Source: Streptomyces sp. CGMCC 4.7035
GTDB lineage: Bacteria; Actinomycetota; Actinomycetes; Streptomycetales; Streptomycetaceae
Direction of reading: 5' to 3'
Length of the DNA stretch: 64,000 nucleotides
Assembly (NCBI RefSeq): GCF_031583065.1
Contig: NZ_CP134053.1
Span: forward strand, 2,852,001 to 2,916,000
The position numbers were made by a program, and so were the translations under genes. A model generated the notes under the pieces. It worked only from the letters and a program-made list of their open reading frames with translations. It was not told where the DNA came from and did no database searches. Of the stretch, positions 46,797-63,404 are shown in pieces. How positions within the stretch are numbered: position 1 is the stretch's first letter; each line of letters opens with the position of its first letter.

Positions 46797-46818
46797 CCAG
46801 GGATAAAACCTTCCTACC
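46797..46818. promoter_or_regulatory. conserved box before XRE regulator 1
   Basis: CCAGGGATAAAACCTTCCTA, continuing CC, ends 34 bases before ATG 46852 and about 180 bases from the divergent 46616 start. It differs from the box at 47737-47758 at only two positions. It is one of eight related boxes. Confidence 0.6.
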
Positions 46819-46851
46819 CAGCCGAGTGGCGGACAGCGCAGACTGGCCAGT

Positions 46852-47709
46852 ATGAACAGCAGTGCGCACCGTCAGGAGCTGGGCCAATTCCTGAAGGCCC
46901 GCCGGGCCGAGCTCAGCCCCCGCACGGTCGGTCTGCCCGAAACCGACCGGCGCCGGCGCGTGGCCGGCCTGCGCCGGGACGAGGTGGCCATGCTGGCCGC
47001 CATCAGCACCAATTACTACACCCGCCTGGAGCAGGGTCGCCTGACCCCCTCCACGTCCGTGCTGTCCGAGCTCGTCCGGGTCCTGCACCTGAGTGACGCC
47101 CAGCGGGATCAGCTGTTCGAGCTGGCCGGAAAGGAGGCCGGTCGGGCGCGACGGCGGGCCCCGCAGAAGGCGCACCCCCGGCTGCGTACCGTGCTGAACG
47201 AGCTCAGCGTGGCCCCCGGGGTGATCCTGGGCCGGCACCTGGACATCCTGGCGTGGAACCCGATGGCCGCTGCCCTGTTCGGCACCGATTTCGCGAAGGT
47301 CTCCCAGCAGCAGCGCAACTACGTCCGGCAGCTCTTCACCGACCCGGCCATGAGAACGCTGTACGCCGACTGGGAGGACTCCGCCCGCAACGCCGTGGCC
47401 GTGCTGCGGCAGCAGGCCGCGGCCTGTCCCGACGACCGGAGACTGGCCGACCTCGTTGGCGAGCTGTCAGTGCTGGACGATCAGTTCTGCCAGTGGTGGG
47501 GAGGCCGCCCCGTGGTGCCCCGGACCGGCGGCACCAAGGTGTTCAACCACCCGGTCGCCGGTGAACTCTCCCTCGCTTGGGACGCCCTCACCTGCGTGGC
47601 CGACCCCGATCAGCAGCTGATCATCTGGAGCGCCGAACCCGAATCACGTACGTACGAGGGCCTGCGCTTCCTTTCCTCCTGGGCGGCGAACCCCGCCATG
47701 AATTCGTAA
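46852..47709 (+). CDS. XRE-family regulator with MmyB-like ligand-binding domain (1 of 3)
   Basis: 285 aa. The helix-turn-helix is at about residues 10-75 (LGQFLKARRAELSPRTVGLP, RRRVAGLRRDEVAMLAAIST, NYYTRLEQGRLTP). The C-terminal MmyB-like domain (about 105-280) has the family signatures LDILAWNPMAAALFG, QRNYVRQLFTDPAM, ADWEDSARNAVA, WGGRPV and LAWDALTCVADPDQQLIIW. MmyB-type regulators have a PAS-like pocket and usually control adjacent dehydrogenases. It is divergent from 45600-46616 and followed by the flavodoxin operon. Confidence 0.9.
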   Translation: MNSSAHRQELGQFLKARRAELSPRTVGLPETDRRRRVAGLRRDEVAMLAAISTNYYTRLEQGRLTPSTSVLSELVRVLHLSDAQRDQLFELAGKEAGRARRRAPQKAHPRLRTVLNELSVAPGVILGRHLDILAWNPMAAALFGTDFAKVSQQQRNYVRQLFTDPAMRTLYADWEDSARNAVAVLRQQAAACPDDRRLADLVGELSVLDDQFCQWWGGRPVVPRTGGTKVFNHPVAGELSLAWDALTCVADPDQQLIIWSAEPESRTYEGLRFLSSWAANPAMNS

Positions 47710-47736
47710 AGCCAGCAGGTGATTCCCGGCGTAAAG

Positions 47737-47758
47737 CCAGGGACAAATCCTTCCTACC
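47737..47758 (+). promoter_or_regulatory. conserved box before the flavodoxin operon
   Basis: CCAGGGACAAATCCTTCCTA, continuing CC, ends 84 bases before ATG 47842 and starts 28 bases after the stop of XRE regulator 1. Together with the 46797 box it defines the best match pair. Confidence 0.6.
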
Positions 47759-47841
47759 TTCGCTGTTGAATTCCGTGCCATGCTTCCAGAGCACGGTTCA
47801 TGCAATCCCTTTCGAGATTCTTTTCGAGGAGCAATACCCCC

Positions 47842-48441
47842 ATGTCCTCCACTCTCCGCCCCACGGTCGCCGTGGCTTTCCATTCCGGCTACGGCCACAC
47901 CGCCGTCATAGCCGAGGCCGTGGCGCGCGGTGCCGCGGAAGCCGGTGCCGAGGTGATCTCCATTCCCGTGGACACGATCACCGACGAGCAGTGGGCGCAG
48001 CTGGACGCCGCCGACGCGATCATCTTCGGTGCCCCCACCTACATGGGCACCGCCTCTGCCGCCTTCCACACCTTCGCGGAGGCGAGCAGCAAGCGCTGGT
48101 TCACCCAGACCTGGGTGGACAAGATCGCCGCCGGCTTCACCAACTCCGGTGCCAAGAACGGCGACAAGTCCTCCACCCTGGGCTACTTCTTCACCATGGC
48201 CGCCCAGCACGGCATGCACTGGGTCAGCCTGGGTGTGCAGCCGGGCTGGGCCTCCACCGAGGGCAGCGAGGACGACATCAACCGTCTGGGCTACTTCGTC
48301 GGTGCCGGTGCCCAGACCCCGACCGATGCCGGTCCGGAGGCCGTCCACAAGTCGGACATCGCCACCGCCGAGGGCCTCGGCGCCCGCGTCGCGCAGCAGA
48401 CCGCCTTCTTCCGCGCCGGCCGCGCCGCTCTCGCCGCCTGA
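47842..48441 (+). CDS. flavodoxin-fold NAD(P)H oxidoreductase (WrbA-like)
   Basis: 199 aa. The FMN phosphate loop AVAFHSGYGHTAVIAEAVAR is at residues 9-28. GAPTYMGTASAAFHTFAEA near 70 and the YFFTMAAQHGMHWVSLGVQP segment near 115-135 are typical of NAD(P)H:quinone oxidoreductases. It should reduce quinones by two electrons, so avoiding semiquinone. GAGGA precedes ATG 47842. First gene of a unit with SnoaL-like, DJ-1-like and MoaF-like genes. Confidence 0.85.
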   Translation: MSSTLRPTVAVAFHSGYGHTAVIAEAVARGAAEAGAEVISIPVDTITDEQWAQLDAADAIIFGAPTYMGTASAAFHTFAEASSKRWFTQTWVDKIAAGFTNSGAKNGDKSSTLGYFFTMAAQHGMHWVSLGVQPGWASTEGSEDDINRLGYFVGAGAQTPTDAGPEAVHKSDIATAEGLGARVAQQTAFFRAGRAALAA

Positions 48442-48486
48442 ACCCGAGAACCTCACCCGCAGCCTGACCCGTAAAGGAGCAGCCCC

Positions 48487-48876
48487 ATGTCCGACTCCCC
48501 GAACCTCGCTCTCGTCCGCCGTCTCTACGACTCCGGCATGGCCCCGGACGTCGTCGCCGAGGTCATCGACCCCGACATCGTCTGGGACATCACCCCCGGC
48601 TTCCCCTACGGCGGCGTCTACAAGACCTGGGCCAGCGCCGGCGCCGACTTCTTCGGCCGGCTCGCGCCGCGCTTCACCTCCTTCGGCGCGGTGGCCGAGG
48701 AGTTCTACGACGCCGGTGAGCACGTGTTCGTCCGCGGTCACTACCACGCCGTGTCCAAGTCCGGCGCGGAGTCGGACGCCCGCTTCATCCACCTGTGGAC
48801 GGTCCGCGACGGCAAGCTCACCCACCTGATCCAGGCCGCCGACAGCCACGTCGTCCAGCAGGCCGCGAACAACTGA
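48487..48876 (+). CDS. SnoaL-like / NTF2-fold protein
   Basis: 129 aa. The NTF2-like alpha+beta pattern is visible: LVRRLYDSGMAPDVVAEVID, DIVWDITPGFPYGGVYKT, EFYDAGEHVFVRGHYHAVSK and FIHLWTVRDGKLTHLIQAAD. The family includes isomerases, cyclases and limonene epoxide hydrolase-like enzymes. AAAGGAG precedes ATG 48487. It sits 45 bases after the flavodoxin gene. Catalytic role unknown; in this setting a detoxification role is plausible. Confidence 0.8.
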   Translation: MSDSPNLALVRRLYDSGMAPDVVAEVIDPDIVWDITPGFPYGGVYKTWASAGADFFGRLAPRFTSFGAVAEEFYDAGEHVFVRGHYHAVSKSGAESDARFIHLWTVRDGKLTHLIQAADSHVVQQAANN

Positions 48877-48905
48877 CCGCCCGCACTCACACCTGGGAGC
48901 ACCCC

Positions 48906-49607
48906 ATGGCGAAGATCCTCTTCCTCATCACCGCCGCCGACCACTGGACCCTGGCCGACGGCTTCGAGCAGCCGGCCGGCTTCTGGGCCGAGGAGGCCAT
49001 CGGCCCGTACGGCGTCTTCAAGGAGGCCGGCTACGAGATCGCCGCGGCCACCCCGGGCGGCATGCCGCCGACCCCCGACGCACTCAGCCTCACCCCGGAC
49101 TTCAACGGCGGCGAGGAGGGCGCCGAGCGGATGAAGACCGCCCTGCGCGAGGCCACCGAACTGGCGAACCCCATCCGTATCGAGGACGTGAACATCGACG
49201 ACTACGACGCCGTGTTCGTCCCCGGCGGCTGGGGCCCGATGGAGGACCTGTCCGACGACCCCGCGGCCGGCAAGCTGCTGAGCGACTGGCTCGCCTCCGG
49301 CAAGCTTGTGACGCTGGTGTGCCACGGCCCGGCCGCGCTGCTGTCCACCGTGGACGCCGACGGCAAGTCCCCGTTCTCCGGCTACCGCCTGACCGGTCTG
49401 TCGAACTCCGAGGAGATCCAGAACGGCCTCGCGGACCGGGCGAAGTGGCTGCTTGAGGACCGTCTCGTCTCGGACGTCGGCGCGGACTACCACAAGGGCG
49501 AGGAGAACTTCGCCCCCCACCTCGAAGTGGACCGCAACCTCATCACCGGCCAGAACCCCGCCTCGGCCGTCCCGCTCGCCCAGGAAGTCGTCAAGACCCT
49601 CGGCTGA
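48906..49607 (+). CDS. DJ-1/PfpI-family protein (glyoxalase III/amidotransferase-like)
   Basis: 233 aa. The nucleophile elbow is LVTLVCHGPAALLS with Cys139, preceded by DAVFVPGGWGPMEDLSDDP; the third element is DYHKGEENFAPHLEVDRNLI. Length and motifs match the Hsp31/HchA-like branch, which hydrates methylglyoxal and repairs glycated groups. ATG 48906 is preferred, GGGAG upstream. It is third in the flavodoxin unit and fits an electrophile-defence role. Confidence 0.85.
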   Translation: MAKILFLITAADHWTLADGFEQPAGFWAEEAIGPYGVFKEAGYEIAAATPGGMPPTPDALSLTPDFNGGEEGAERMKTALREATELANPIRIEDVNIDDYDAVFVPGGWGPMEDLSDDPAAGKLLSDWLASGKLVTLVCHGPAALLSTVDADGKSPFSGYRLTGLSNSEEIQNGLADRAKWLLEDRLVSDVGADYHKGEENFAPHLEVDRNLITGQNPASAVPLAQEVVKTLG

Positions 49608-49655
49608 CGACACCCCGCACCACCGCTCACAGGCTCAAGGAAAGAGGTAGTACCG

Positions 49656-49994
49656 ATGGACAGCAACGCGACTCTCCCCAGCGTGGGCCAGACCTGGCTC
49701 GCGGACCTCGGCCCCGACACCCCGCTCGGCCACTTCACGGTGGAGATCACCTTCGACTCGGCGACCCAGGTCAGCTTCGAGGTGACCGGTGGCGCCATCA
49801 AGGGCCGTAAGCAGACGATGGAGTACACCACCACCCAGCTCCGCGACGGCCTGTTCGTCGTCCGCTGGACCGAGCCCGACGCGGGTGACCACGTCACTCA
49901 CATCGAGGACTACACCGAGGGCACCTGCATGGCCAGCTCGGTCATCGGTGGCGAGTTCGTCCAGCTCCACGGGAAGTGGACCCGCGTCCGCTGA
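49656..49994 (+). CDS. MoaF-like calycin-fold protein
   Basis: 112 aa. The sequence runs TLPSVGQTWLADLGPDTPLG, FTVEITFDSATQVSFEVTGG, QTMEYTTTQLRDGLFVVRWT, HVTHIEDYTEGTCMASSVIG and ends FVQLHGKWTRVR. The beta-rich, lipocalin-like pattern and the VxWTEPDxGDHVxHIED segment are typical of MoaF-related small proteins. GGAAAGAGG precedes ATG 49656. Fourth gene of the unit, then XRE regulator 2. Ligand unknown. Confidence 0.75.
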   Translation: MDSNATLPSVGQTWLADLGPDTPLGHFTVEITFDSATQVSFEVTGGAIKGRKQTMEYTTTQLRDGLFVVRWTEPDAGDHVTHIEDYTEGTCMASSVIGGEFVQLHGKWTRVR

Positions 49995-50031
49995 TCCCAC
50001 AGGGCAGCGCGCTTCTCGACGGTGAGGACTT

Positions 50032-50079
50032 CCAGGGACAAATCTCTCCCCCTGACAACACCGCTTTCCGGTGTCAGGG
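50032..50079 (+). promoter_or_regulatory. conserved box and hairpin before XRE regulator 2
   Basis: CCAGGGACAAATCTCTCCCC at 50032-50051 resembles the boxes at 46797 and 47737. It runs into a hairpin whose stem is CCCTGAC at 50050-50056 and GTCAGGG at 50073-50079 with an inner ACCG/CGGT. The hairpin ends 7 bases before ATG 50087, where it could bury the ribosome binding site or be an operator. Confidence 0.55.
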
Positions 50080-50086
50080 TGATGGC

Positions 50087-50956
50087 ATGAACCGCGATCC
50101 TCACCGCCACGATCTGGGGGAATTCCTCAAGGCGCGCCGTGCCGAGCTCGACCCGGCCGCCGTCGGCCTGCCCGACGGCGGCTCGCGTCGCGTCGCGGGC
50201 CTGCGCCGTGAGGAGGTCGCCGTACTGGCGGCCATCAGCACCGACTACTACGCCCGCCTCGAACAGGGCCGTATCCAGCCGTCGCCGTCGGTGCTGGAGT
50301 CCCTGGCCCGGGTGCTGCGCCTGGACGAGGATCAGCGCGCCTACCTGTACGAGCTCGCGGCCAAGGACGAATTCCGCCCGCCCCGCCGGCAGCCGCGCCT
50401 CAAGGCGCAGCCGCAGTTGCAGCGCATGCTCGACGACATGGCGCACACCCCCGCGTTCGTGATCGGTCCGCGCACCGAGATCGTCGCCTGGAACGCCATG
50501 GGCGCCGCCCTGATCACCGACTTCGGCAAGATCCCGGAGAAGCAGCGGTACTACATCAGGCTGCTCATCACGGACCCCGCGATGCGCGAGCTGTACGCGG
50601 ACTGGGAGGGCGTCACCCGGCTGGCGATCGCCCAGATGCGGATGCACAACGCCAACAACCCCGGGGATACGCAGCTCGCCACCCTGGTGGGCGAGCTCTC
50701 GGTCCGGGACGAGCAGTTCCGCCAGTGGTGGGGCGCCCACCACGTCGCCGTCCGGGACACCGGGACCAAGCACCTGCGCCACCCCGTCGTCGGCGACCTG
50801 CACCTCGACTGGAACGCCGTCACCTGGGCCGCCGATCCCGACCTGGCGATCATCGTCTGGACCGCCGAAACCGGCACCCCGACCCACGACAGCCTGCGCA
50901 TGCTGGCCTCCTGGGCGGCGGACCCGAGCCACTCGACCAGCGACAGCTCCGCCTGA
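50087..50956 (+). CDS. XRE-family regulator with MmyB-like ligand-binding domain (2 of 3)
   Basis: 289 aa, same layout as regulator 1: LGEFLKARRAELDPAAVGLP, SRRVAGLRREEVAVLAAIST, DYYARLEQGRIQP for the DNA-binding part, and TEIVAWNAMGAALITDFGKI, QRYYIRLLITDPAM, ADWEGVTRLAIAQMRM, WWGAHHVAVRD for the MmyB-like domain. GGTGTCAGGG... before ATG 50087 gives a poor binding site that overlaps a hairpin. It follows the flavodoxin unit and precedes the exporter at 51191. It may regulate both. Confidence 0.9.
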   Translation: MNRDPHRHDLGEFLKARRAELDPAAVGLPDGGSRRVAGLRREEVAVLAAISTDYYARLEQGRIQPSPSVLESLARVLRLDEDQRAYLYELAAKDEFRPPRRQPRLKAQPQLQRMLDDMAHTPAFVIGPRTEIVAWNAMGAALITDFGKIPEKQRYYIRLLITDPAMRELYADWEGVTRLAIAQMRMHNANNPGDTQLATLVGELSVRDEQFRQWWGAHHVAVRDTGTKHLRHPVVGDLHLDWNAVTWAADPDLAIIVWTAETGTPTHDSLRMLASWAADPSHSTSDSSA

Positions 50957-50980
50957 CCGTCGCCCCAGGTATTCCCTCCA

Positions 50981-51002
50981 AAGGGGGAGCCTTTCCTCCT
51001 AC
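50981..51002 (+). promoter_or_regulatory. conserved box before the MFS exporter
   Basis: AAGGGGGAGCCTTTCCTCCT, continuing AC, lies about 190 bases before ATG 51191. It shares the purine-AAT-TCCTnCCT form of the other boxes, though weaker than the 46797/47737 pair. Confidence 0.45.
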
Positions 51003-51190
51003 GCGCCCGGCGCCTAGGAAGAGGCTCTCCCTTTTTCGTGTACGGCTCTCCTGGCACGCTCGTCATGAGGCCCACCGCGCTGCGCGTCCCCGCCCCGGTC
51101 CGGCCTTCTTCCCACCGACAGAACCGGTTTCCTCAGCGCCGAGGCGTCCGACCTGCCTGCTCATCCGCCAGGAAAGAGATCCACCTCCCC

Positions 51191-52612
51191 ATGTCCCTGA
51201 CCCAGTCCCGCCCCGGGACGCTCTCCTCGGCCGTCCCCGAACCGCGCTGGACCCCCCGCCTTTGGGCCGTCCTCGCCGTGCTGTGCCTCGTGCTGTTCCT
51301 CGACGGCCTCGACGTCTCCATGGTCGGCGTCGCCCTGCCCTCCATCGGCCACGACCTCGGCATGGCCACCGGCTCACTGCAGTGGATCATCAACGGCTAC
51401 GTCCTCGGCTACGGCGGCCTGATGCTGCTCGGCGGCCGCACCGCCGACCTGCTCGGACGCCGCCGCGTCTTCCTCGTCGCGCTGGCCGTCTTCGCCGCCG
51501 CCTCGCTGCTCGGCGGCCTCGTCGACAGCGGCACGCTGCTGATCGCCACCCGCTTCGTCAAGGGCGTGGCCGCCGCCTTCACCGCGCCCGCCGGCCTGTC
51601 GATCCTCACCACGACGTTCCCGGAGGGCCCGCAGCGCAACCGGGCGCTGTCGGTCTTCAGCCTCTTCGGCGCCCTGGGCTACTCCTCGGGCCTGATCCTG
51701 GGCGGTCTGCTCACCGGGATCGGCTGGCGCTGGACCTTCCTCATGCCGGTCCCGCTCGCCCTGCTCGCGCTGGTCGTCGGCCTGATTCTGATCCCGCGCG
51801 ACCGCCGCACCGAGACCGGCGGCCAGGACCCGGCCGGGGCGGTCACCCTCACCGCGGGCATGCTGCTCGCCGTGTACGCCGTGGTCACCGCCCCGCAGAC
51901 GGGCTGGGCCTCCGGGGCGACCCTCGCAGCCTTCGGCGTCGCCGCCCTGCTGCTGCTCGCCTTCGTCCTGATCGAGCAGCGGGTCCGGCACCCGCTGGTC
52001 CGCTTCGGCATCCTGCGCAAGGCCACCACGGTCCGGGCCAACCTCAGCATCGTCGCGCTGATGGGCTCCTACCTCAGCTTCCAGTTCATGATGACGCTGT
52101 TCCTGCAGGACGGGCTCGGCTGGTCGCCCCTGCGCATGGCCTTCGCGCTGCTGCCGGTCGGCCTGATCGTCGCCGTCGGCTCGCCCCTCACCGGACGGCT
52201 CGTCAATCGCTTCGGCACAGCACCGCTCATCATCACCTCGATGACCTCGCTGACCCTCGGCTACGTCTGGTTCCTGGCGACGGCCGGCTCCTCACCCGAC
52301 TACCTCACCGCCATGCTCCCGGCCCTGCTGCTCCTCGGCGGCGGCTTCGCATTCGGCTACAGCGCCATCATGGCCCAGGCCACCGAAGGCATCGACGACT
52401 CCGAACAGGGCCTCGCCTCCGGCCTGGTACAGACCTCCGGCCAGGTCGGCGCCGCCCTCGTCCTCGCCGTACTCACCGCCGTGATCGCCCAAGCCGGCGA
52501 CAGCGGCGGCGACTTCACCGCCTACCGGCCCGGCCTGAACCTGGTCACCGGCGTAGCCGCGATCGGGTTGCTCCTGAACCTGGTCCCCGCGCTGCGTCTG
52601 CGGCGGCGCTGA
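51191..52612 (+). CDS. MFS exporter, DHA2 (14-TM) family
   Basis: 473 aa with about 14 helices. LDGLDVSMVGVALPSIGHDL is the first-helix motif, GGRTADLLGRRRVFLVALAV the loop motif A, and FSLFGALGYSSGLILGGLLT the antiporter motif C region. It should export hydrophobic compounds with protons. AGGAAAGAG lies upstream of ATG 51191. It is separate in sequence from the exporter at 22539. A terminator hairpin follows. Confidence 0.87.
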   Translation: MSLTQSRPGTLSSAVPEPRWTPRLWAVLAVLCLVLFLDGLDVSMVGVALPSIGHDLGMATGSLQWIINGYVLGYGGLMLLGGRTADLLGRRRVFLVALAVFAAASLLGGLVDSGTLLIATRFVKGVAAAFTAPAGLSILTTTFPEGPQRNRALSVFSLFGALGYSSGLILGGLLTGIGWRWTFLMPVPLALLALVVGLILIPRDRRTETGGQDPAGAVTLTAGMLLAVYAVVTAPQTGWASGATLAAFGVAALLLLAFVLIEQRVRHPLVRFGILRKATTVRANLSIVALMGSYLSFQFMMTLFLQDGLGWSPLRMAFALLPVGLIVAVGSPLTGRLVNRFGTAPLIITSMTSLTLGYVWFLATAGSSPDYLTAMLPALLLLGGGFAFGYSAIMAQATEGIDDSEQGLASGLVQTSGQVGAALVLAVLTAVIAQAGDSGGDFTAYRPGLNLVTGVAAIGLLLNLVPALRLRRR

Positions 52613-52628
52613 GCCCCGACAGACGGAG

Positions 52629-52732: not shown

Positions 52733-53650
52733 TCAGCGGACGTGGCAGTCGAACCAGTCGACAGCGACCTCGGGGTGCTCGCTGAAGTAGTTGTAGCCGT
52801 CGAAGCGGCGGGTGCTGCCGTGGATCCAGTGCATCTGCTTGTCCTCGACGGGGATGGCGTCGTGGACGGCCTGCACGGCTTCAGGGGTGGTCATGACGTC
52901 GTCGTGCTCCTGCGTCACCAGCGTGGGTACGGTGATGGCGGAGGCGTACTTGGCAGGCGACTGCTCTGCAAGACGGAATCCGGTGCGCTCCAGCACGGCC
53001 TGGTCGAGCCGGTCGTAACCGCCTCTGAAACCAAGGGCCTTGGAGAACTGTTCGCCGATGGAACGGCCCTCCAACGGCTGGAGCATCACCAGTGCCTGGA
53101 TCTCGGCGAACTCCTCGGGGTGCTTGGCCCAGGCCACGGCAGTGGAGTTGGCGCCCAGGCACACCGACAGCAGGGCCTTCTTCATGTTCTTGGTGTCGGG
53201 GCGTGCCGCGGCGTAGCGGAGGGCTCCGATGACGTCGCGGTACTCGGTGAGGCCGATCGTGCAGATGCCGCCGTTGCCGTACCCGCTCATGCCGTGGTTG
53301 CGCAGGTCGTAGGCGAGGACGTTGTAGCCGGCGTCGTGCAGTGCCTTGTAGGAGGGGAGGAAGTTGACCTCGAAGCCGCCGAAGCGGTCCCAGCCGGGCA
53401 GGTGTCCGGGATAGCCGTAGCGGTTGCCGGGGGAGAAGTGGTTGTGGGTGATCAGCCGGTCCGAGTCGGCCGGGATGAACCACCCCTCGAGAGGCACGCC
53501 GTCCATCGACGGGAACGTCACGTCCTCGTAGGCCAGGCCCAGTTCGGAGGGCCGGCGCAGCAGAGGCGCGCGCCGGCCGTCGGTGGTGCCTTCCGTCCAC
53601 TGCCCGACGAATCCGTTGAATGCCAGCTCGGCCATGTCGAGTTCGGTCAT
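52733..53650 (-). CDS. alpha/beta hydrolase
   Basis: 305 aa, alpha/beta-hydrolase fold. The oxyanion region is ITHNHFSPGNRYGYPGHLPG, then YNVLAYDLRNHGMSGYGNGG. The nucleophile elbow region is LLSVCLGANSTAVAWAKHP (with Cys rather than Ser at the centre: S-V-C-L-G), and the acid/base part is VTQEHDDVMTTPEAVQAVHD and MHWIHGSTRRFDGY. The CxG elbow suggests a dienelactone-hydrolase- or YcjY-like enzyme. AGGAG precedes ATG 53650. A conserved box lies 142 bases upstream at 53792. Confidence 0.8.
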   Translation of the reverse strand: MTELDMAELAFNGFVGQWTEGTTDGRRAPLLRRPSELGLAYEDVTFPSMDGVPLEGWFIPADSDRLITHNHFSPGNRYGYPGHLPGWDRFGGFEVNFLPSYKALHDAGYNVLAYDLRNHGMSGYGNGGICTIGLTEYRDVIGALRYAAARPDTKNMKKALLSVCLGANSTAVAWAKHPEEFAEIQALVMLQPLEGRSIGEQFSKALGFRGGYDRLDQAVLERTGFRLAEQSPAKYASAITVPTLVTQEHDDVMTTPEAVQAVHDAIPVEDKQMHWIHGSTRRFDGYNYFSEHPEVAVDWFDCHVR

Positions 53651-53791
53651 GGTGCGCTCCTGATTTCCCGGCAAGGGTGCTTGATGTGTGGTACTCCGGG
53701 CGCCTGAATTTTCCTCAAGATAGGCCCGTAAGTACATTTTCTGCATCTTGAGCCGGGTCTGGGTAGAGAAAGTGAAGGGGAAGGAATTCTC

Positions 53792-53812
53792 CCAGGGAGT
53801 AATTCCTCCCTG
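53792..53812. promoter_or_regulatory. conserved palindromic box before the hydrolase gene
   Basis: CCAGGGAGTAATTCCTCCCT, then G. Here the inverted nature of the box is clear: AGGGAG-taattc-CTCCCT is a perfect 6-base-arm palindrome. Confidence 0.55.
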
Positions 53813-53934: not shown

Positions 53935-54978
53935 TCAGATCGTCGCGGTGTCGATCACGAACCGGTACCGGACGTCGCTCGCCTGCACCCGCTCGTACGC
54001 CTCGTTGATCTCGGACGCGGCGATGACTTCGATCTCGGCGCCGAAGCCGTGCTCGGCACAGAAGTCCAGCATCTCCTGGGTCTCGGCGATGCCGCCGATG
54101 GCGGAGCCGGCGATCGACCTGCGGCCCATGATCAGGGGAAAGACGTTGACGGAGATCGGCTCCTCGGGGGCGCCGACGTTGACCAGGACTCCGTCGATCT
54201 TCAGCAGGTTCACGTAGCCGCTGAAGTCCAGCGGAGCCGAGACCGTCGAGACGATCAGGTCGAAGGTGCCGGCCAGGTCCTCGAAGGTCTTCGGGTCGCT
54301 GGTGGCGTAGTAGCGGTCCGCGCCCAGGTTCAGGCCGTCGTCCTTCTTGCGCAGCGACTGCGAGAGGACGGTGACCTCGGCGCCCAGCGCGTGCGCGATC
54401 TTGACGCCCATGTGGCCGAGGCCGCCCAGACCGACGATCGCGACCTTCTTGCCGGGACCGGCGCCCCAGTGCTTGAGCGGGGAGTACAGGGTGATGCCCG
54501 CGCACAGCAGCGGGGCGGCCACGTCGAGGGCGAGGCCGTCGGGGATGCGGACGGCGTAATTCTCGTCGACCACGATCTTCTCGGAGTAGCCGCCGTAGGT
54601 GGGCCGGCCGTCCTTGTCGAGGTAGTTGTACGTCTGGATCATGCCGCTGCCGGTGCAGTACTGCTCCAGTCCGGCCTTGCAGTGCTCGCACTCGCGGCAA
54701 GAGTCGACGAAGCAGCCGACGCCCACCCGGTCGCCGACCTGGTACTTCGTGACACCGGGGCCGACCTCGGAGACGACACCGGCGATCTCGTGACCGGGGA
54801 CCATCGGGAAGATGGCGGTACCCCAGCCCTCCTGGACCTGGTGGATGTCGGAGTGACAGATGCCGGCGAACTTGATGTCGATCAGCACGTCGAATTCGCC
54901 GACCGGGCGCCGCTCGATGGTGGCGCGCTCCAGCGGAGCCTTGGCGGCGGGCGCGGCGTAAGCAGCAACGGTGGTCAT
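53935..54978 (-). CDS. NAD(P)-dependent cinnamyl-alcohol-type dehydrogenase (YahK-like)
   Basis: 347 aa. Catalytic zinc: [15 protein letters not shown] and [13 protein letters not shown]. Structural zinc: [21 protein letters not shown]-binding: [20 protein letters not shown] near residue 185. The family reduces aldehydes to alcohols with NADPH. GGAGAC lies before ATG 54978. A conserved box (55065-55085) lies 87 bases upstream, suggesting joint control with the XRE-linked genes. Confidence 0.88.
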
Positions 54979-55064
54979 GAGGGGGGTCTCCTAGCAGTGC
55001 TCTCGTGCCCGGCTGCCTTCGGACCGGGCACGGTGACGAGCCTGCCTCGCCGCCGGGAAATGAC

Positions 55065-55085
55065 CCAGGGCAGGAATGCGCCTAC
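55065..55085. promoter_or_regulatory. conserved box before the 53935 dehydrogenase
   Basis: CCAGGGCAGGAATGCGCCTA, then C; the left part matches the consensus and the right part is degenerate. It lies upstream of the minus-strand dehydrogenase start at 54978. Confidence 0.4.
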
Positions 55086-55222
55086 GTTCGCGGTTCCTAC
55101 CACTGTCAGAGTCAGGCTCTTGCCCGGCGGCGCGTGAAATGTGACATGTCCTCAAGAATTATGCACTCAAGAATTCGGTTCGCTCACCGCCTCCTCGTCA
55201 TGGGGAAGACCACGAGAAGGCA

Positions 55223-55247
55223 AAGGGGGGATAAAAGTCTCCCTGCC
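55223..55247 (+). promoter_or_regulatory. conserved box before the molybdenum oxidoreductase operon
   Basis: GGGGGGATAAAAGTCTCCCT with flanking AA and GCC, about 150 bases before ATG 55400. It shows the GGGA-TAAAA-TCCCT form. The remaining intergenic sequence (55010-55399) shows GAAGG near 55390 as the binding site and no other element I can name. Confidence 0.5.
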
Positions 55248-56038: not shown

Positions 56039-56050
56039 GGAGCGGCCACC

Positions 56051-57031
56051 ATGCATCCCTTCTCCTACACCCGCGTCTCCGACACCCGTGAAGCCCTCAA
56101 GGCCGGTCGCGCAGGCGGTCGTTACATCGCCGGGGGGACCACGCTGGTCGACCTGATGCGGGAGACCGTCGAGCGCCCCGAGGCGCTGGTCGACATCTCC
56201 GGCCTGCCGCTCCGCGAAGTCACCGTCACCGAGCGCGGGGGCTTGCGCATCGGAGCGCTGGTGCGGATGGCCGAGGCCGCCGCGCACCCCAAGGTACGCA
56301 CGCTGTATCCCGTCATTTCCCAGGCCCTGGAACTGAGCGCGTCCGCCCAGCTGCGGAACATGGCCACCATCGGCGGCAACATCATGCAGCGCACCCGGTG
56401 CACCTACTTCCGTGATGTGACCGCGGCCTGCAACAAGCGTGAGCCCGGCTCCGGTTGTGCGGCGCGGGAGGGCTTCAACCGGATGCACGCGATCCTCGGC
56501 ACCTCCGACGCCTGCGTGGCCACCCACCCTTCCGACGTGGCCGTCGCCTTCGCTGCCCTGGAGGCAACGGTGCATCTCCTCGGCGCGGAGGGCGTGCGCA
56601 CCCTGCCGTTCGCCGACTTCCTGCTACGGCCCGGCACGACCCCGAACCGTGAACAAGCTCTCAGAAAAGGCGAGTTGATCACGGCTGTGGAGATCCCAGC
56701 GCTTCCGCGTCCGCTCAAGTCCGGATACCTGAAGGTGCGCGACCGGCAGTCCTACGAGTTCGCCCTGACCTCGGCGGCGGTCGCGTTGCACGTCCGGCGC
56801 GGGGTCATCCAGGAGGCGAAGGTCGCCGCCGGTGGCGTGGGGACCGTGCCGTGGAAACTGCCCGCCGTCGAGCGGCACCTCGTCGGTGAGCGTCCCTCGG
56901 AGTCCGTGTGGACGTCCGCTGCCGCGAAGGCGGCGGACGGCGCCCGTCCCCTTCAGCACAACGGCTTCAAGGTCGAGCTGCTGAAACGGACCGTCGCACG
57001 CCAGCTGCGCATCGTAGGAGGTACGAAGTGA
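56051..57031 (+). CDS. molybdenum aldehyde oxidoreductase, FAD subunit (PaoB-like)
   Basis: 326 aa. The FAD-binding segments are GGRYIAGGTTLVDLMRETVE near residue 20-38 and ATIGGNIMQRTRCTYFRDVT near 105. The extra Cys-rich insert RCTYFRDVTAACNKREPGSG, followed by Cys and a later DAC, is the [4Fe-4S] site known from PaoB and related subunits. The C-terminal CO dehydrogenase flavoprotein domain (SYEFALTSAAVALHVRRG) follows. It starts 12 bases after the first subunit and overlaps the third by four bases. Confidence 0.88.
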   Translation: MHPFSYTRVSDTREALKAGRAGGRYIAGGTTLVDLMRETVERPEALVDISGLPLREVTVTERGGLRIGALVRMAEAAAHPKVRTLYPVISQALELSASAQLRNMATIGGNIMQRTRCTYFRDVTAACNKREPGSGCAAREGFNRMHAILGTSDACVATHPSDVAVAFAALEATVHLLGAEGVRTLPFADFLLRPGTTPNREQALRKGELITAVEIPALPRPLKSGYLKVRDRQSYEFALTSAAVALHVRRGVIQEAKVAAGGVGTVPWKLPAVERHLVGERPSESVWTSAAAKAADGARPLQHNGFKVELLKRTVARQLRIVGGTK

Positions 57032-59220
57032 GCCCCCAGCCACAGGCAGCCGTGGGCGCGCCATTGTCCCGGGTGGACGGCCGCCTCAAGGTCACCGGAA
57101 AGGCGCTGTACGCCGCCGAACACGACGTCGAGGGTGTGGTGCATGCCGTCATCGTCGACGCGAGCATCGGGCGCGGCCGTGTCACCTCGATCGACACCGG
57201 TGACGCCGAGAAACAAACCGGTGTGCTGCGGGTGATCCATCACGGCAACGCGCCGACGCTGCCGTACCGCGACAACGCCGGATCCAACAACCCGCCCGGC
57301 CGCAGGCTCAGGGTCTTCCAGGAGGATCGGGTGCTCTTCCGCGGCCAGCCGGTCGCGGTCGTGGTGGCGAGCACGTTGGAGGCCGCGCAGCACGGGGCGA
57401 GCCTGGTGAAGGTCCGCTACGACGCCGAGCGGCCCTCGACCGACCTGCACGAGGCCGAGCCGGGCGCGCCGACGGACTACGCGCGCGGCGACGCGGAAGC
57501 CGGCCTGCGTTCCTCAGCCGTACGGCTGGACCTGACGTACGAGCTGGCGCGCAACCACCACAACCCGATGGAGCCGCACGCCACCATCGCCCGCTGGGAC
57601 GGCGACAAGCTGACCGTCTGGGACAAGACCCAGTGGGTGATGGGCACACACGACGAGCTCGCTGCCGTGTTCGACCTGCCCGCGGACTCGGTGCGCGTGA
57701 TCTCGCCGTTCGTCGGCGGCGGTTTCGGCAGCGGACTGCGCTGCTGGCCGCACACGGTCGTCGCCGCGCTGGCCGCGCGGGTGGCGCGACGCCCGGTCAA
57801 ACTGGTGCTCAGCCGCAGGCAGATGTACTTCGGCACCGGCTTCAGGCCGTCGTACGAGTACCGGCTGCGGCTCGGCAGTGACCGGCGAGGCCGGCTGAAC
57901 GCCGCGATCCACGACATCGACGCCGAGACCTCGTCGTACGAGACGTTCTTCGAGGCCGTCATGTCGGCAGGCCAGATGCTCTACAGCATGCCCAACGTCC
58001 GTCAGGCGTACCGGCGGGTGCCCCTCGACGTGAACACCCCTATCTGGATGCGCGGCCCCGGCTTCGCCTCGGCCTCATTCGTGATCGAGTCCGCGATGGA
58101 CGAACTCGCACACGAACTCGACCTCGACCCGATCGAGTTGCGCCGGCGCAACGAGCCGAGCGAGGACGAGTCGACGAACGAGCCGTTCTCCACCCGACGG
58201 CTCAGTGAGTGCTACACGGTCGGCGCGCGTGAGTTCGGCTGGGACCGCCGTAACCCGAGGCCGCGCTCGACGCGGGACGGGGACTGGCTGGTCGGCCTGG
58301 GCATGGCCGCAGGTGTGTACGACCCGGGGCGGTATCCCGCGCAGGCGCGGGCCCGTCTGGACGCCGACGGCACCGCGGTGGTCGAAGCGGCCACCAGTGA
58401 CATGGGGCCCGGCACCTACACCTCCCAGACCCAAGTGGCCGCGGACGCACTCGGGTTGACGATGCGCACGGTGACCTTCAGGCTGGGGGACTCCCTGTAT
58501 CCGCCGACCTCGCCGCACGGCGGCTCGGCGACCATGGCCAGCGTCGGCTCGGCCGTCGTCGACGCCTGCAACAAGGTGCGGCAGGAGGCGATTCGGCTGG
58601 CCGTCGAGGACCGGGAGTCGCCGCTGTACGGCGTGAACGCGGACGACGTGGTGGTGCGGAACGGCCGACTGCATGTGCAGGGCAGCCCGGCGCGCGGGGA
58701 GACGTACAAGAGTCTGCTGGCCCGCAACGACCGCTCTCACCTGGAATCGAAGGGTTCCTACGACGGGCCGGGCAGCGACCGGTCTGCCTACTTCGCCTAC
58801 AACGCCACCTTCGCCGAGGTCGCCGTGGACGCGAACCTGGGTCTGGTGCGGGTGCGGCGGATGCTCGGCGTGTACGACGCGGGGCGGATCATCAGCCCCA
58901 AGCTGGCCGAGAGCCAGGCGTTCGGCGGCATCGTGGGCGGCATCGGCACGGCCCTGCTGGAGCACACGGTCACCGACCACCGGGACGGTCGGATCGTGAA
59001 TGCCAGCCTGGCCGACTACCTCGTGCCCGTGAACGCCGACGTGCCCGAGATCAAGGCGATCTACCTGGACGGCGAGGACAACGCCGGCAACCTGCTGGGC
59101 GTCAAGGGACTCGGCGAGGTCGTCCAAGTGGGTGTGGCGGCCGCGATCGGCAACGCGGTCTTCAACGCCACCGGCCGACGGATCCGCCAACTGCCCATCA
59201 CCGCCGAGGCGTTGCTCTGA
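57028..59220 (+). CDS. molybdenum aldehyde oxidoreductase, Mo-cofactor catalytic subunit (PaoC-like)
   Basis: 730 aa. The N-terminal domain (SRVDGRLKVTGKALYAAEHD) and the Mo-pterin-binding domains follow the xanthine dehydrogenase family: GGGFGSGLRCWPHTVVAALA near residue 230, PIWMRGPGFASASFVIESAM near 335, and the C-terminal GVKGLGEVVQVGVAAAIGNA, whose Glu is the catalytic base. GTG 57028 overlaps the previous stop, with a perfect GGAGG before it. It should oxidise aldehydes (aromatic ones in PaoABC) to acids. With the small subunit's Tat signal, the whole enzyme probably moves folded across the membrane. Confidence 0.9.
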   Translation: MSPQPQAAVGAPLSRVDGRLKVTGKALYAAEHDVEGVVHAVIVDASIGRGRVTSIDTGDAEKQTGVLRVIHHGNAPTLPYRDNAGSNNPPGRRLRVFQEDRVLFRGQPVAVVVASTLEAAQHGASLVKVRYDAERPSTDLHEAEPGAPTDYARGDAEAGLRSSAVRLDLTYELARNHHNPMEPHATIARWDGDKLTVWDKTQWVMGTHDELAAVFDLPADSVRVISPFVGGGFGSGLRCWPHTVVAALAARVARRPVKLVLSRRQMYFGTGFRPSYEYRLRLGSDRRGRLNAAIHDIDAETSSYETFFEAVMSAGQMLYSMPNVRQAYRRVPLDVNTPIWMRGPGFASASFVIESAMDELAHELDLDPIELRRRNEPSEDESTNEPFSTRRLSECYTVGAREFGWDRRNPRPRSTRDGDWLVGLGMAAGVYDPGRYPAQARARLDADGTAVVEAATSDMGPGTYTSQTQVAADALGLTMRTVTFRLGDSLYPPTSPHGGSATMASVGSAVVDACNKVRQEAIRLAVEDRESPLYGVNADDVVVRNGRLHVQGSPARGETYKSLLARNDRSHLESKGSYDGPGSDRSAYFAYNATFAEVAVDANLGLVRVRRMLGVYDAGRIISPKLAESQAFGGIVGGIGTALLEHTVTDHRDGRIVNASLADYLVPVNADVPEIKAIYLDGEDNAGNLLGVKGLGEVVQVGVAAAIGNAVFNATGRRIRQLPITAEALL

Positions 59221-59367
59221 CGACACCGCCTCCATGGACGAGTCCGGCAGCCGAACTCCCCGTACGGTTGCCGGACCTCCCCGGGCCGCCGCCGCGCATC
59301 GCCCCCGTGGACGCGGCGGCGGCCCTATCCACCTTCTGCGACAGCGACGTCTGTTCTGGAGCCCCCC

Positions 59368-60633
59368 ATGCTGAACATCGCGGACACACTGCACCGCTGG
59401 TGCCGCGAGGAACGCCCCTTCGCCCTGGCCACGGTCGTCGACGTCACCGGCAGCGCACCCCTGCCCATCGGTACGTCGGTGGCGGTGCACGAGGACGGCA
59501 AGGTCATCGGCAGCATCTCCGGCGGCTGCGTCGAGGGCGCGGTGTACGAGCTGTGCCGGCAGGTGCTGGATGAGCAAGATGCGCCCCGGCGGGCCTGGTT
59601 CGGCTACTCCGACGACGACGCCTTTGCTGTGGGCCTGACCTGTGGCGGCGAGCTCGACGTCCTTGTCCAGCGCATCGACCCCGCCGCCCAGCCGCATCTC
59701 GGCGCGGCGCTCGCCGAGGCGGTCGAGGGTCGGCCTGCTGCCGTGGCACAGGTCGTGGACGGGCCCGAGGGATTGCTCGGCACCACTTTGAGCGTGCTCG
59801 GCGACAGTTGGATCGCCGACAGCACGCTCGGCGACGGGCCGACCGGGCGGGCGGTGGCGGACCGGGCCACCGCCCAACTGCGTACCGGACGCACCGCGCT
59901 CCTCACCCTCGGCGGAGACGCCGACACCTGCCCCGAGAAGCTCTCCGTCCTCGTCCACGCGGCCGCCACCCGCCCCCGCATGCTGATCTTCGGCGCGATC
60001 GACTTCGCCGCCGCCCTCGCCCAGGCCGGCCGGTTCCTCGGCTACCACGTCACCGTGTGCGACGCCCGCCCCGTCTTCGCCACCGAAGCCCGCTTCCCGC
60101 ACGCCGACGAGGTGGTCGTCGACTGGCCCCACCGCTACCTGGCCCAGACGGCCGTGGACGCCCGTACCGCCGTCTGCGTGCTGACCCACGACGCCAAGTT
60201 CGACATCCCCCTGCTCCAGCTCGCCCTCGATCTGCCCGTCGGCTACGTCGGCGCCATGGGCTCCCGCCGCACCCACGATGAACGTCTGCGCCGCCTGCGT
60301 GAAGTCGGGGTCACTGATGGACAGTTGGATCGGCTGCACTCCCCGATCGGCCTCGACCTCGGTGCCCGCACCCCCGAGGAGACGGCCACCTCCATCACCG
60401 CCGAGATCATCGCCCACGCAAACCAGAGCACCGGCCTGCCTCTGGCAGGGGTCACCGGTCCGATCCACCGCGTTTCCGGTGCCGCTTCAGACAGTCATGC
60501 GGTGTGCGATCTTCTGCGAAACTCCTTTGACGGCGTGAGCGGAGCAGGAAGCACGGGGGCCTTGAGTGAGGTGCGGCGAGCGGGCGGCGGCATCGACCAG
60601 GTTGCGGCACGGCGAGGACGTCACCCTGGCTGA
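59368..60633 (+). CDS. XdhC/CoxI-family molybdenum-cofactor maturation protein
   Basis: 421 aa. The XdhC N-terminal domain has ATVVDVTGSAPLPIGTSVAV, SISGGCVEGAVYE and LTCGGELDVLVQR. The Rossmann C-terminal domain has MLIFGAIDFAAALAQAGRFL and YVGAMGSRRTHDERLRRLRE. Such proteins bind Mo cofactor and help insert its sulfido ligand into the catalytic subunit. It follows the three-subunit operon by 147 bases on the same strand. The last 45 residues are Gly/Ala/Ser-rich and beyond the family norm. Confidence 0.87.
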   Translation: MLNIADTLHRWCREERPFALATVVDVTGSAPLPIGTSVAVHEDGKVIGSISGGCVEGAVYELCRQVLDEQDAPRRAWFGYSDDDAFAVGLTCGGELDVLVQRIDPAAQPHLGAALAEAVEGRPAAVAQVVDGPEGLLGTTLSVLGDSWIADSTLGDGPTGRAVADRATAQLRTGRTALLTLGGDADTCPEKLSVLVHAAATRPRMLIFGAIDFAAALAQAGRFLGYHVTVCDARPVFATEARFPHADEVVVDWPHRYLAQTAVDARTAVCVLTHDAKFDIPLLQLALDLPVGYVGAMGSRRTHDERLRRLREVGVTDGQLDRLHSPIGLDLGARTPEETATSITAEIIAHANQSTGLPLAGVTGPIHRVSGAASDSHAVCDLLRNSFDGVSGAGSTGALSEVRRAGGGIDQVAARRGRHPG

Positions 60634-60672
60634 CGAATCCGTGGCCCATCACCGTCGTTCGCTACTGCTGGT

Positions 60673-61260: not shown

Positions 61261-61274
61261 GAGACTCAGTTTAC

Positions 61275-61342
61275 CCAACCGAACCGTTCGGTTTGGCAGC
61301 GGCGGTCGATGACTGTATGCTCAAACCGAACCGTTTGGTTTG
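61275..61342. promoter_or_regulatory. paired operators between TetR and aldo/keto reductase genes
   Basis: CAACCGAACCGTTCGGTTTG (within 61275-61296) and AAACCGAACCGTTTGGTTT (within 61322-61342) are imperfect palindromes with the same core ACCGAACCGTTyGGTTT. The centres are about 46 bases apart. The second lies 20 bases before ATG 61362 and is likely to cover the reductase promoter. This pattern differs from all other operators in the window, so it is specific to this TetR. Confidence 0.75.
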
Positions 61343-61361
61343 AACCTATTGGGGGTCACTC

Positions 61362-62300
61362 ATGCAGCAGCGCAATCTGGGCCGCCAGGGCCTGACCGTC
61401 TCCGAGATCAGTTACGGCGCGATGGGCACCGCCTTCGCCTACGGCCCCTCGGACGACACCGCGTCGATCACCGCCATCCGCCGCGCCCACGAGCTCGGCG
61501 TGAACCACTTCGACACCGCCGAGATGTACGGCTGGGGAGAGGGCGAGAAGCTGCTCGGCCACGCCCTCGCGCCCATCCGCGACGAGGTGACGATCGCGAC
61601 CAAGTTCGGCCTCACGCCGACCTTCGCTCCGAACTCGAAGCCGGACCACATCCGTGAGGTCGTCGAGAACAGCCTCCGCAACCTGAACACCGACGTGATC
61701 GACGTGCTCTACCAGCACGGCCCCGACCCCGAGGTCCCGATCGAGGAAGTCGTCGGCGTGATGAAGGAGTTCGTCGACGCCGGAAAGGTCAACTACCTCG
61801 GCCTGTCCAACACCGACACCGACGCCATCCGCCGCGCCCACGCGGTGCACCCGATCTCGGTCCTCCAGCACGAGTACTCGATCTTCGCCCACGACTCCGA
61901 GCAGTTCTTCCCGGTCCTGGAGGAGCTCGGCATCGGTCTCGTCGCCTACTCCCCGCTGGCCCGCGGCTTCCTCAGCGGCGCCGTCCAGTCCCGCGAGCAC
62001 TACGACCCGAGCGACATTCGCAACATGATCCCCTGGTGGGCTCCGGAGAACTTCGACCAGAACGTCTCCCTGGTCAACGAGCTCACCAAGCTCGCGGAGA
62101 GCAAGGGCGTCAGCCTCTCCCAGCTGGCCCTGGCCTGGCTGCTGGCGAAGAAGGACTACATCGTCCCGATCCCCGGCTCGCGCAACCCCGAGCGGGTCGC
62201 GCAGAACATCGCCGCCGCCGACCTCAGGCTGACCGCCGACGACCTCGCCCGCATCGACGAGATCGCACCCGACGGCGGCATCGGCGGACGAGGTATGTAA
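61362..62300 (+). CDS. aldo/keto reductase
   Basis: 312 aa, (beta/alpha)8 barrel. The catalytic tetrad is in place: Asp and Tyr in FDTAEMYGWGEGEKLLGHAL, Lys in TIATKFGL, His in LYQHGPDP. NADPH-binding: VPIPGSRNPERVAQNIAAAD near the C-terminus. It reduces aldehydes or ketones. It is the target of the divergent TetR gene. Confidence 0.9.
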   Translation: MQQRNLGRQGLTVSEISYGAMGTAFAYGPSDDTASITAIRRAHELGVNHFDTAEMYGWGEGEKLLGHALAPIRDEVTIATKFGLTPTFAPNSKPDHIREVVENSLRNLNTDVIDVLYQHGPDPEVPIEEVVGVMKEFVDAGKVNYLGLSNTDTDAIRRAHAVHPISVLQHEYSIFAHDSEQFFPVLEELGIGLVAYSPLARGFLSGAVQSREHYDPSDIRNMIPWWAPENFDQNVSLVNELTKLAESKGVSLSQLALAWLLAKKDYIVPIPGSRNPERVAQNIAAADLRLTADDLARIDEIAPDGGIGGRGM

Positions 62301-62463
62301 ACCCGCACCCGCACCCGCACACCGGAGCCCGGCTGACCGCTGCGGGCAGGTAATCCGCACACGGCATGGGCCCAGCCCCTCTCGAGAGGACTGCGACGGC
62401 TTCATTGCCCGGCAGCGCACATCCCGCCTGCTGTCTGCTGTTCGACAGGCGTGGTTCCCGTGG

Positions 62464-63333
62464 TCAGGCGACAGGAGGAGAGGCCGGCAGGTTCTGGTCG
62501 GCGGCCCAGGAGGCGAGGATGCGCAGCCGCTCGTGGGTGGGGGAGCCGGGTGCGGCCGTCCAGACGGTGAGGTGCTGGTCGGGGTCGGTGTTGGCGGTCA
62601 GGGTGTCCCAGTCCAGGACGAGTTCGCCGACCACCGGGTGGTTGAGGGTCTTCGTGCCCACGGTGCGGGCGGCGACGCGGTGGTCGCCCCACCACTGGGC
62701 GAACTGCTTGTCGCGTAGGGACAGTTCACCGACCAGCTCGATGAGGCGGGGGTCCTCGGGATACTGCGCGGCTTCCATCCGCAGCTGTGCCACGGCGAGC
62801 CGCGCGGAGGTCTGCCAGTCGGCGTACAGGGTGCGCATGGCCGGATCCGTGAAGATGATCCGCGGGTAGTTGCGGTGCTTCTCCGGGATCCGGGAGAAGT
62901 CGGTGACCAGCGCGGCCGCCAGCGCGTTCCAGGCCAGGATGTCCCCGCGCCGGCCCTGCACGATGGCCGGGGTGGCGGTGAGATCGTCCAGTACGCGCTG
63001 CAACTGCGGCTGGACCTTCTGCCGCCCCCGGCTGCGGGTGCGTGTGGTGATCTTGCCGGCGAGCTGGAAGAGATAGCCGCGTTCGTCGTCGTCGAGACGG
63101 AGCACCCGGGCGAGCGTGTCCAGCACGGGCGCGGACGCCTGCATACGGCCCTGTTCGAGACGCGTGTAGTAGTCGGTGCTGATGCTGGCGAGCTGGGCGA
63201 CCTCTTCGCGGCGCAGCCCGGCGACCCGGCGCGGGCCGCCGTTGTCGGGCAGGCCGACAGTGCGCGGGCTCAGCTCGGCACGGCGCTTCTTGAGGAATTC
63301 TCCCAGCTCGTTGAGGGGGACATTGCCGGTCAT
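62464..63333 (-). CDS. XRE-family regulator with MmyB-like ligand-binding domain (3 of 3)
   Basis: 289 aa. DNA-binding part: LGEFLKKRRAELSPRTVGLP, RRVAGLRREEVAQLASISTD, YYTRLEQGRMQ. MmyB-like domain: GDILAWNALAAALVTDFSRI, RNYPRIIFTDPAM, ADWQTSARLAVAQLRMEAAQ, WWGDHRVAARTV, LDWDTLTANTDPDQHLTVW. ATG 63333 is chosen; ATG 63345 is four codons upstream. Divergent from the SDR gene at 63542, with a conserved box between. Confidence 0.88.
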   Translation of the reverse strand: MTGNVPLNELGEFLKKRRAELSPRTVGLPDNGGPRRVAGLRREEVAQLASISTDYYTRLEQGRMQASAPVLDTLARVLRLDDDERGYLFQLAGKITTRTRSRGRQKVQPQLQRVLDDLTATPAIVQGRRGDILAWNALAAALVTDFSRIPEKHRNYPRIIFTDPAMRTLYADWQTSARLAVAQLRMEAAQYPEDPRLIELVGELSLRDKQFAQWWGDHRVAARTVGTKTLNHPVVGELVLDWDTLTANTDPDQHLTVWTAAPGSPTHERLRILASWAADQNLPASPPVA

Positions 63334-63383
63334 GCCGGTCAGCATGACACCGAACGCACCTGAGGAAGGAGGGAGAGTTTTCA

Positions 63384-63404
63384 CCCAGGATGTATCCCTC
63401 CCCG
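63384..63404. promoter_or_regulatory. conserved box between XRE regulator 3 and the SDR gene
   Basis: CCCAGGATGTATCCCTCCCC, then G, 50 bases from the XRE start on one side and about 137 from the SDR start on the other. The sequence AGGAtgtaTCCCT has the inverted form of the other boxes. Confidence 0.5.

Follow-up and report, generated by a model that had tools for sequence, protein, structure and literature searches.

Gene content of the locus

The 64,000-nucleotide (nt) stretch of Streptomyces sp. CGMCC 4.7035 analyzed here (positions 2,852,001 to 2,916,000 of the 8.09-Mb genome; called the window below, with coordinates counted from its first nucleotide) contains a cluster of oxidoreductase genes interspersed with three genes for regulators of the MmyB family, which we call MmyB1, MmyB2, and MmyB3. 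A short box recurs in front of these regulators and of several of the enzyme genes. Judging from the sequence, we consider it likely that a clade of MmyB-family regulators uses this box as its operator. It would be bound by a dimer immediately 5′ of the −35 position, is probably common to all three proteins, and most likely serves to activate their own genes together with genes predicted to detoxify reactive carbonyls or quinones.

The cluster extends from a zinc alcohol dehydrogenase gene (ADH1; 45600 to 46616, minus strand; Pfam ADH_N/ADH_zinc_N) to a short-chain dehydrogenase gene (SDR; plus strand, from 63542 to 64000 and continuing past the window end), and the same cluster is present in named Streptomyces records. 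ADH1 is divergent from MmyB1 (46852 to 47709, plus strand), which is followed on the plus strand by genes for a WrbA-like flavodoxin/quinone reductase (47842 to 48441), a SnoaL-like protein (48487 to 48876), a DJ-1/PfpI protein (48906 to 49607), a MoaF-like protein (49656 to 49994), MmyB2 (50087 to 50956), and a major facilitator superfamily (MFS) exporter (51191 to 52612). An alpha/beta hydrolase (52733 to 53650) and a second zinc alcohol dehydrogenase, ADH2 (53935 to 54978), are encoded on the minus strand. The plus-strand operon at 55400 to 60633 encodes the 2Fe-2S, FAD, and Mo subunits of a PaoA-like molybdenum aldehyde oxidase (here XdhA operon) and an XdhC-type maturation factor. A TetR regulator and an aldo-keto reductase (AKR) also belong to the cluster, as does MmyB3 (62464 to 63333, minus strand). 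Assignments are by Pfam and NCBIfam; several of the family matches missed the curated NCBIfam cut-offs, among them WrbA (under the equivalog cut-off) and the DJ-1 protein (closest model HchA, also under its cut-off). The gene map is heuristic, with some starts set by hand, and leaves 18.9% of window positions intergenic. Going by gene families, the enzyme set may point to reactive aldehydes or quinones.

A recurrent box in front of regulator and enzyme genes

A first-pass annotation of this DNA had listed eight boxes, at 46797, 47737, 50032, 50981, 53792, 55065, 55223, and 63384. The matrix used here was built independently of them. From 99 upstream regions of MmyB-family genes, 45 of them non-redundant, we removed eight loci of the same genome (L001, L006, L007, L008, L010, L011, L013, and L014), a distant paralogue from another genome (L045), and three close orthologues of the window regulators (L021, L052, and L080). 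The 33 upstream regions that were used still include orthologues of MmyB1 (L020 and L022) and MmyB2 (L055) and many of MmyB3. De novo expectation-maximization (EM) on these 33 returned the motif TCC[T/A]GGGAnnAAAYTCTCCCCC with a log-likelihood of 400, whereas three shuffled sets gave 70, 73, and 76; here, as for the second EM motif described below, the three shuffles were mononucleotide shuffles given 20 random starts, against 60 or 80 for the real run.

When the window was scanned with this held-out matrix, the eight best matches (at least 13.2 bits; seven sites, with 53776 and 53777 counting as one) all fell in intergenic DNA and all within the cluster. The best matches within genes reached 9.5 and 8.9 bits, so the earlier remark that boxes were not seen within genes is true of the eight top matches but not below them. 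The consensus CCAGGGANAAANCCTTCCTA has zero-mismatch matches in the genome only at 46797 and 47737; two further genome matches appear at three mismatches, as does the single control match. Chance resemblance in AG/CT-rich intergenic DNA might be suspected, given that two of the eight boxes first listed do not belong, but the shuffled and reversed controls and the conservation described below leave that explanation with virtually no standing and exclude it for the sites at 46796, 47736, 50031, and 63369.

Four of the earlier boxes were recovered by the matrix. The MmyB1 box TCCAGGGATAAAACCTTCCTAC (46796 to 46817, plus strand) scores 25.3 bits. The box of the WrbA operon, GCCAGGGACAAATCCTTCCTAC (47736 to 47757, plus strand), scores 16.5 bits and is followed at +40 from the box start by the −10 element TGCCATGCT, and the MmyB2 box TCCAGGGACAAATCTCTCCCCC (50031 to 50052, plus strand) scores 32.1 bits, with TGTCAGGGT at +41. 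Between the hydrolase and ADH2 genes, the palindrome noted at 53792 corresponds to a plus-strand box (53791 to 53812; 19.2 bits; counterpart in two relatives) that overlaps an opposite-strand box facing the alpha/beta hydrolase (53776 to 53797, minus strand; 14.0 bits). A fifth, the box of the aldehyde oxidase operon, AGGGGGGATAAAAGTCTCCCTG (55224 to 55245, plus strand), stands by its conservation in three relatives and by its −10 element, TGCAAGACT at +41.

The first list was also incomplete and in places misplaced. It lacked a box facing ADH1 (46766 to 46787, minus strand; 14.4 bits), which has the −10-like sequence TGACAGAGT at +41 and lies in a region conserved in relatives. The site proposed at 63384 (63383 to 63404, plus strand) scores 8.9 bits and has no −10 element at the standard distance; it lies between, and overlaps, two better placed sites. 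One is the MmyB3 box TCCTGGGTGAAAACTCTCCCTC (63369 to 63390, minus strand; 29.0 bits; TGTCATGCT at +41), and the other is an SDR box (63399 to 63420, plus strand), found by applying the −9 offset described below, which has TGTGAGGCT at +41 in a conserved region. The exporter had been counted among the box-bearing genes; none of the listed matrix matches in the window is a box of its own.

Two candidates were rejected. The sequence at 50981 is the left arm of a hairpin that resembles a terminator, located 3′ of MmyB2 (50980 to 51036, plus strand; −37.3 kcal/mol, z −4.97, followed by TTTTT) and has a matrix score of −18.5; the right arm (51012 to 51033), at 9.9 bits, is the top non-box match in the window. 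The region around 55065 (55064 to 55125, plus strand) aligns with the control region of another MmyB subfamily's alcohol dehydrogenase: its alignment to the upstream region of an alcohol dehydrogenase gene at 1.19 Mb, whose product is 81% identical to ADH2 and which is divergent from another MmyB gene, scores 156.5, against a maximum of 96.5 in 200 shuffles. Speaking for box membership instead is TGTCAGAGT at +40, a match equaled by 0.0005 of random positions. ADH2 together with its upstream region (53935 to 55160; L005) resembles a duplicate of the ADH-MmyB locus at 1.19 Mb without the regulator.

Promoter geometry

The box stands at a fixed distance from the start of the gene. All 33 promoters have an in-frame start-type codon 56 to 58 nt from the box start, which is ATG in 31; the exceptions (L046 and L097) have GTG at that distance and ATG at 67. 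With a −10 matrix derived from these promoters, TGCCATACT, and six offsets allowed, the top match falls between +40 and +42 in all 33 and at +41 in 28. In the window, −10 elements at +40 or +41 follow the boxes of ADH1, WrbA, MmyB2, XdhA, MmyB3, and SDR, and the fractions of 4,000 random window positions that did as well, with seven offsets allowed, were 0.0047, 0, 0.0015, 0, 0, and 0, respectively. Because box, extended −10 element, and start codon keep a fixed spacing, the regulators are probably translated from leaderless mRNAs. The −35 position, which is often poor, comes right after the right half-site, and the box ends 18 to 19 nt before the extended −10 element, abutting or overlapping the −35 position, a placement that would suit a class II activator.

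The layout is often mirrored. In 23 of the 33 promoters, all outside the genome studied here, a second box on the opposite strand occurs at exactly −9; at this offset the facing box scores 2.9 on average, compared with −38.1 over all offsets (standard deviation, 8.9). The next-best offsets, 23 (−4.8) and 7 (−5.8), may reflect the symmetry of the box itself. Among 32 divergent reading frames, 26 were aligned, and 10 of these, chosen by us, were given to Pfam; they comprised one ADH, two SDRs, one AKR, one ApbE, one carboxymuconolactone decarboxylase, two cupins, and two hydrolases, and the facing box at −9 was the best match in eight of the 10 (exceptions, L028 and L036). In the window, the ADH1/MmyB1 pair shows the −9 offset and has sites facing both genes, as does the SDR/MmyB3 pair, at −9 from the MmyB3 box, with its weak SDR box. 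MmyB2 is not divergent from a target gene.

Conservation and distribution of the box

Orthologous promoters were aligned in sets of 12 rows, window included, over 150 nt of upstream sequence (near-duplicate WrbA promoters L079 and L081 were dropped). Box columns were more conserved than the rest in each set: 0.91 versus 0.69 for WrbA (rank 7 of 129 windows of the alignment), 0.94 versus 0.82 for MmyB1 (rank 3 of 129), and 0.87 versus 0.72 for MmyB2. The region upstream of MmyB3 is conserved in four relatives.

At one mismatch or fewer, TCCWGGGANNRANNYYTCCYNC has four matches in the genome, all four of them in the cluster. A stricter pattern derived from the motif gave 23 matches in 18 of 150 Streptomyces genomes, the present one included, and none with the reversed control. 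Each of the 23 lies 56 to 57 nt upstream of an MmyB-family gene, with 21 assigned by their helix-turn-helix (HTH) pattern and two (in G049 and G033) by coordinates, 56 nt upstream of MmyB2 matches. Across 84,980 species, a collection from which the window's own genome may be missing, CCAGGGANNAANCCTTCCTACC was found at 14 loci, 12 of which are Streptomyces copies of the cluster; in these the box precedes MmyB1, WrbA, or, if WrbA is absent, SnoaL, and in one (L115) the locus stops shortly after the box. At the remaining two loci no cluster gene was found at an E value of 1e−15. A phage origin was considered and rejected: a relative was found in a single one of 50,697 phage records, at 38% identity.

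These distributions bear on the alternative that the box is part of the promoter itself, as a generic or sigma-factor element, and not a site for a regulator. The fixed spacing to the −10 element would be expected of such an element. However, the genome holds no close copy elsewhere, all 23 matches precede MmyB genes, and the geometry recurs in another MmyB subfamily, where the right half of the site is different (CTTCCTGGGACTGCCnGTACCAGG; see below). We therefore regard a promoter element as very improbable.

Regulators predicted to read the box

All three regulators have an N-terminal XRE-type HTH domain (HTH_31) above the cut-off and an MLTR_LBD domain (PF17765) at 172.1, 182.2, and 202.9 bits, against a cut-off of 26.3. 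An AlphaFold model of MmyB2, built with 22 sequences, has MltR (Caur_2278; PDB 3pxp) as its top fold match (E value, 4.3e−12; TM-score of 0.50 and root mean square deviation of 12 over the whole chain); a phmmer search of the PDB with MmyB2 gave no match. MltR shares the MLTR_LBD domain, but it is 19% identical to MmyB2, and the accessible part of its description contains no operator. On the basis of Pfam and of this fold match, a PAS-like pocket is the likely sensor. The cysteines expected of a thiol-based redox regulator are absent from MmyB2 and MmyB3, which makes a thiol switch unlikely for these two; MmyB1 has three.

The recognition regions of MmyB1, MmyB2, and MmyB3 are near-identical, in agreement with the first-pass annotation, and its proposal of an MmyB-type regulon with a common box is well supported at the level of sequence by these regions, by the 23 matches, and by the conservation of the box. 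The distribution of MmyB1 suggests which proteins might read it. MmyB1 is fragmented in G040, G122, and G049, and only its first 66 residues are seen in L122; it was not found in the examined stretch of G104 nor in L124 (search thresholds, E values of 1e−25 and 1e−15). The WrbA box is kept in all six, with one base changed in G040. This persistence without an intact MmyB1 argues that the WrbA box is probably read by another regulator, with MmyB2 or MmyB3 the likely candidates.

It could instead be that each MmyB protein serves its own divergent partner alone and that the boxes resemble one another through common ancestry. In favor of such a division, many promoters have a facing box at −9 (23 of 33), and the right halves of the MmyB1 and WrbA boxes differ from those of MmyB2 and MmyB3. 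The WrbA box kept in relatives that lack an intact MmyB1 and the near-identical recognition regions speak the other way, and we think it unlikely that partner-only control accounts for the data.

In L079, L080, L086, and L122, MmyB1 is broken or shortened while its neighbors are mostly whole, as if it were dispensable. Of the 14 matches to PF17765 in the genome, one comes from a degraded MmyB1 copy at another location (L015; G000:C1:1959272-1959835), which is 82% identical over residues 25 to 213 and contains two in-frame TGA codons.

Proposed mode of action

In the scheme that we favor, a regulator dimer would bind the imperfect dyad (CCWGGGA, about 8 nt, TCCC) just upstream of the −35 position, at a fixed spacing from the extended −10 element (TGnCAnACT, at about +41) and from the start codon (56 to 58 nt). 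The same box would serve ADH1, the WrbA-SnoaL-DJ1-MoaF unit, the alpha/beta hydrolase, the molybdenum aldehyde oxidase operon, and SDR, and MmyB1, MmyB2, and MmyB3 would probably be interchangeable, given their near-identical recognition regions. A small ligand in the PAS-like pocket, perhaps a reactive carbonyl, a quinone, or a signal molecule, would lead the dimer most likely to activate its own gene and the detoxification genes. Activation is favored by where the dyad lies, immediately 5′ of the −35 position, by the many poor −35 sequences and extended −10 elements, and by the precedent of MmyB.

The same operator might also be occupied by MmyB proteins acting as repressors that cover the −35 position and are freed by ligand. 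The box abuts the −35 position, where repressors can sit as well, and MsrR, an XRE protein, acts as a repressor of its own gene and of a divergent exporter, according to the accessible part of PMC7532634; in addition, the MmyB2 promoter has a fair −35 sequence (CTGACA). However, most −35 sequences are poor and the −10 elements extended, as would be typical of activator-dependent promoters, and MmyB itself is described as an activator in the part of PMC3406030 available. In our judgment, repression is the less probable mode and activation by these proteins the more probable one.

Several observations weigh against the scheme of a common activator site. Fifty column-shuffled matrices (plus strand) reached a peak of 19.1 bits in the window, with a mean top score of 10.9, so the sites of 13 to 19 bits are not proved by score alone and rest also on conservation and spacing. 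The XdhA and SDR boxes score just 2.6 and −0.6 with the held-out matrix. The MmyB1 promoter has a weaker −10 element without TG (0.07 of random positions do as well), the hydrolase box has none at the usual distance (0.57), and, besides the fair −35 sequence of MmyB2, TCACA is found in some relatives. The MmyB2 box ranks only 18th of 129 alignment windows. At two mismatches, TCCWGGGANNRANNYYTCCYNC has 15 genome matches and the reversed control has 11, so nothing can be learned from looser matching. The 23 matches are not independent, as the pattern was drawn from the 33 promoters, many of them upstream of MmyB3 orthologues; the informative part of that result is the absence of matches elsewhere. 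Finally, L116 keeps the WrbA box although a search of its 8 kb detected no MmyB1 and no MmyB2.

Comparison with described systems

MmyB of the methylenomycin cluster on SCP1 belongs to the same protein family as the cluster regulators, and pseudo-palindromic sites ("B-boxes") have been proposed for it in the accessible part of PMC3406030; the likeness to the present sites is by description, not by B-box sequence. The cluster studied here, unlike that of methylenomycin, holds mainly oxidoreductases. In 40.7 kb of a Streptomyces anthocyanicus plasmid, no gene named mmy was found among the 29 listed features. The same part of PMC3406030 reports that the MmyB paralogues of Streptomyces coelicolor are divergent from their putative targets in 15 of 16 cases, often SDR or medium-chain dehydrogenase (MDR) genes. 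This is the divergent layout seen here, although that part describes no box, spacing, or multi-promoter regulon. MsrR of Corynebacterium glutamicum is likewise an XRE regulator of a divergent stress locus, but as far as PMC7532634 is available it senses by cysteine oxidation, and MmyB2 and MmyB3 are without cysteine. An approach based on upstream motifs, like ours, produced 223 palindromic XRE motif clusters in the part of PMC12565409 available, and overlap with its supplementary motif table is possible. Our literature search, whose scope did not include the 2009 methylenomycin paper or that motif table, found the operator or its spacing described in no title or abstract.

The wider MmyB family

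Relatives of a paralogue at 3.68 Mb have a different operator, CTTCCTGGGACTGCCnGTACCAGG (log-likelihood, 568, versus 71 to 72 for three shuffles), and in 26 of 30 promoters, the genome's own copy included, a start-type codon lies 56 to 58 nt from where the motif begins. The left half is common to the two subfamilies, whereas the right half and the helix residues differ (ISTDYYTR versus ISADYIIR). A variant site with GTCCTGGGACA occurs upstream of L042, L047, L048, L062, and L132, whose helices read ISPDYY or ISSDYY (that of L132 was unread); it is possibly a shift in specificity. For 26 loci of other genera (L132 to L157), EM converged on coding sequence, and the HTH was found by the first regular expression in seven of 26. 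By eye and unscored, several of these promoters show CCTGGG-type sites and a CACACTGG-like −10 element near the ATG.

We tentatively suggest, as a conceivable generalization, that the MmyB family shares a hard-wired promoter module in which operator, extended −10 element, and leaderless start are set at constant distances. A mirror copy at exactly −9 would in many cases serve a divergent enzyme gene, and the CCWGGGA left half would be common to subfamilies while the right half and recognition helix co-vary. If so, upstream DNA alone would reveal the sites and targets of a large orphan family of actinobacterial regulators. Actinomycetes encode many such regulators, and a site or target appears to be known for few of them. 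The cluster offers a testable operator, promoter geometry, and multi-operon regulon, for which gel shifts would suffice, and it is a natural system for studying how DNA specificity is retained or diverges among sister regulators. It could also provide a means of predicting targets elsewhere.

A separate regulatory element may lie in the same cluster. The intergenic region between the TetR and AKR genes (61277 to 61345) contains, by eye, two near-palindromes around AACCGAACCGTTCGGTTTGG; they are unlike the MmyB box and are perhaps the operator of the TetR protein.

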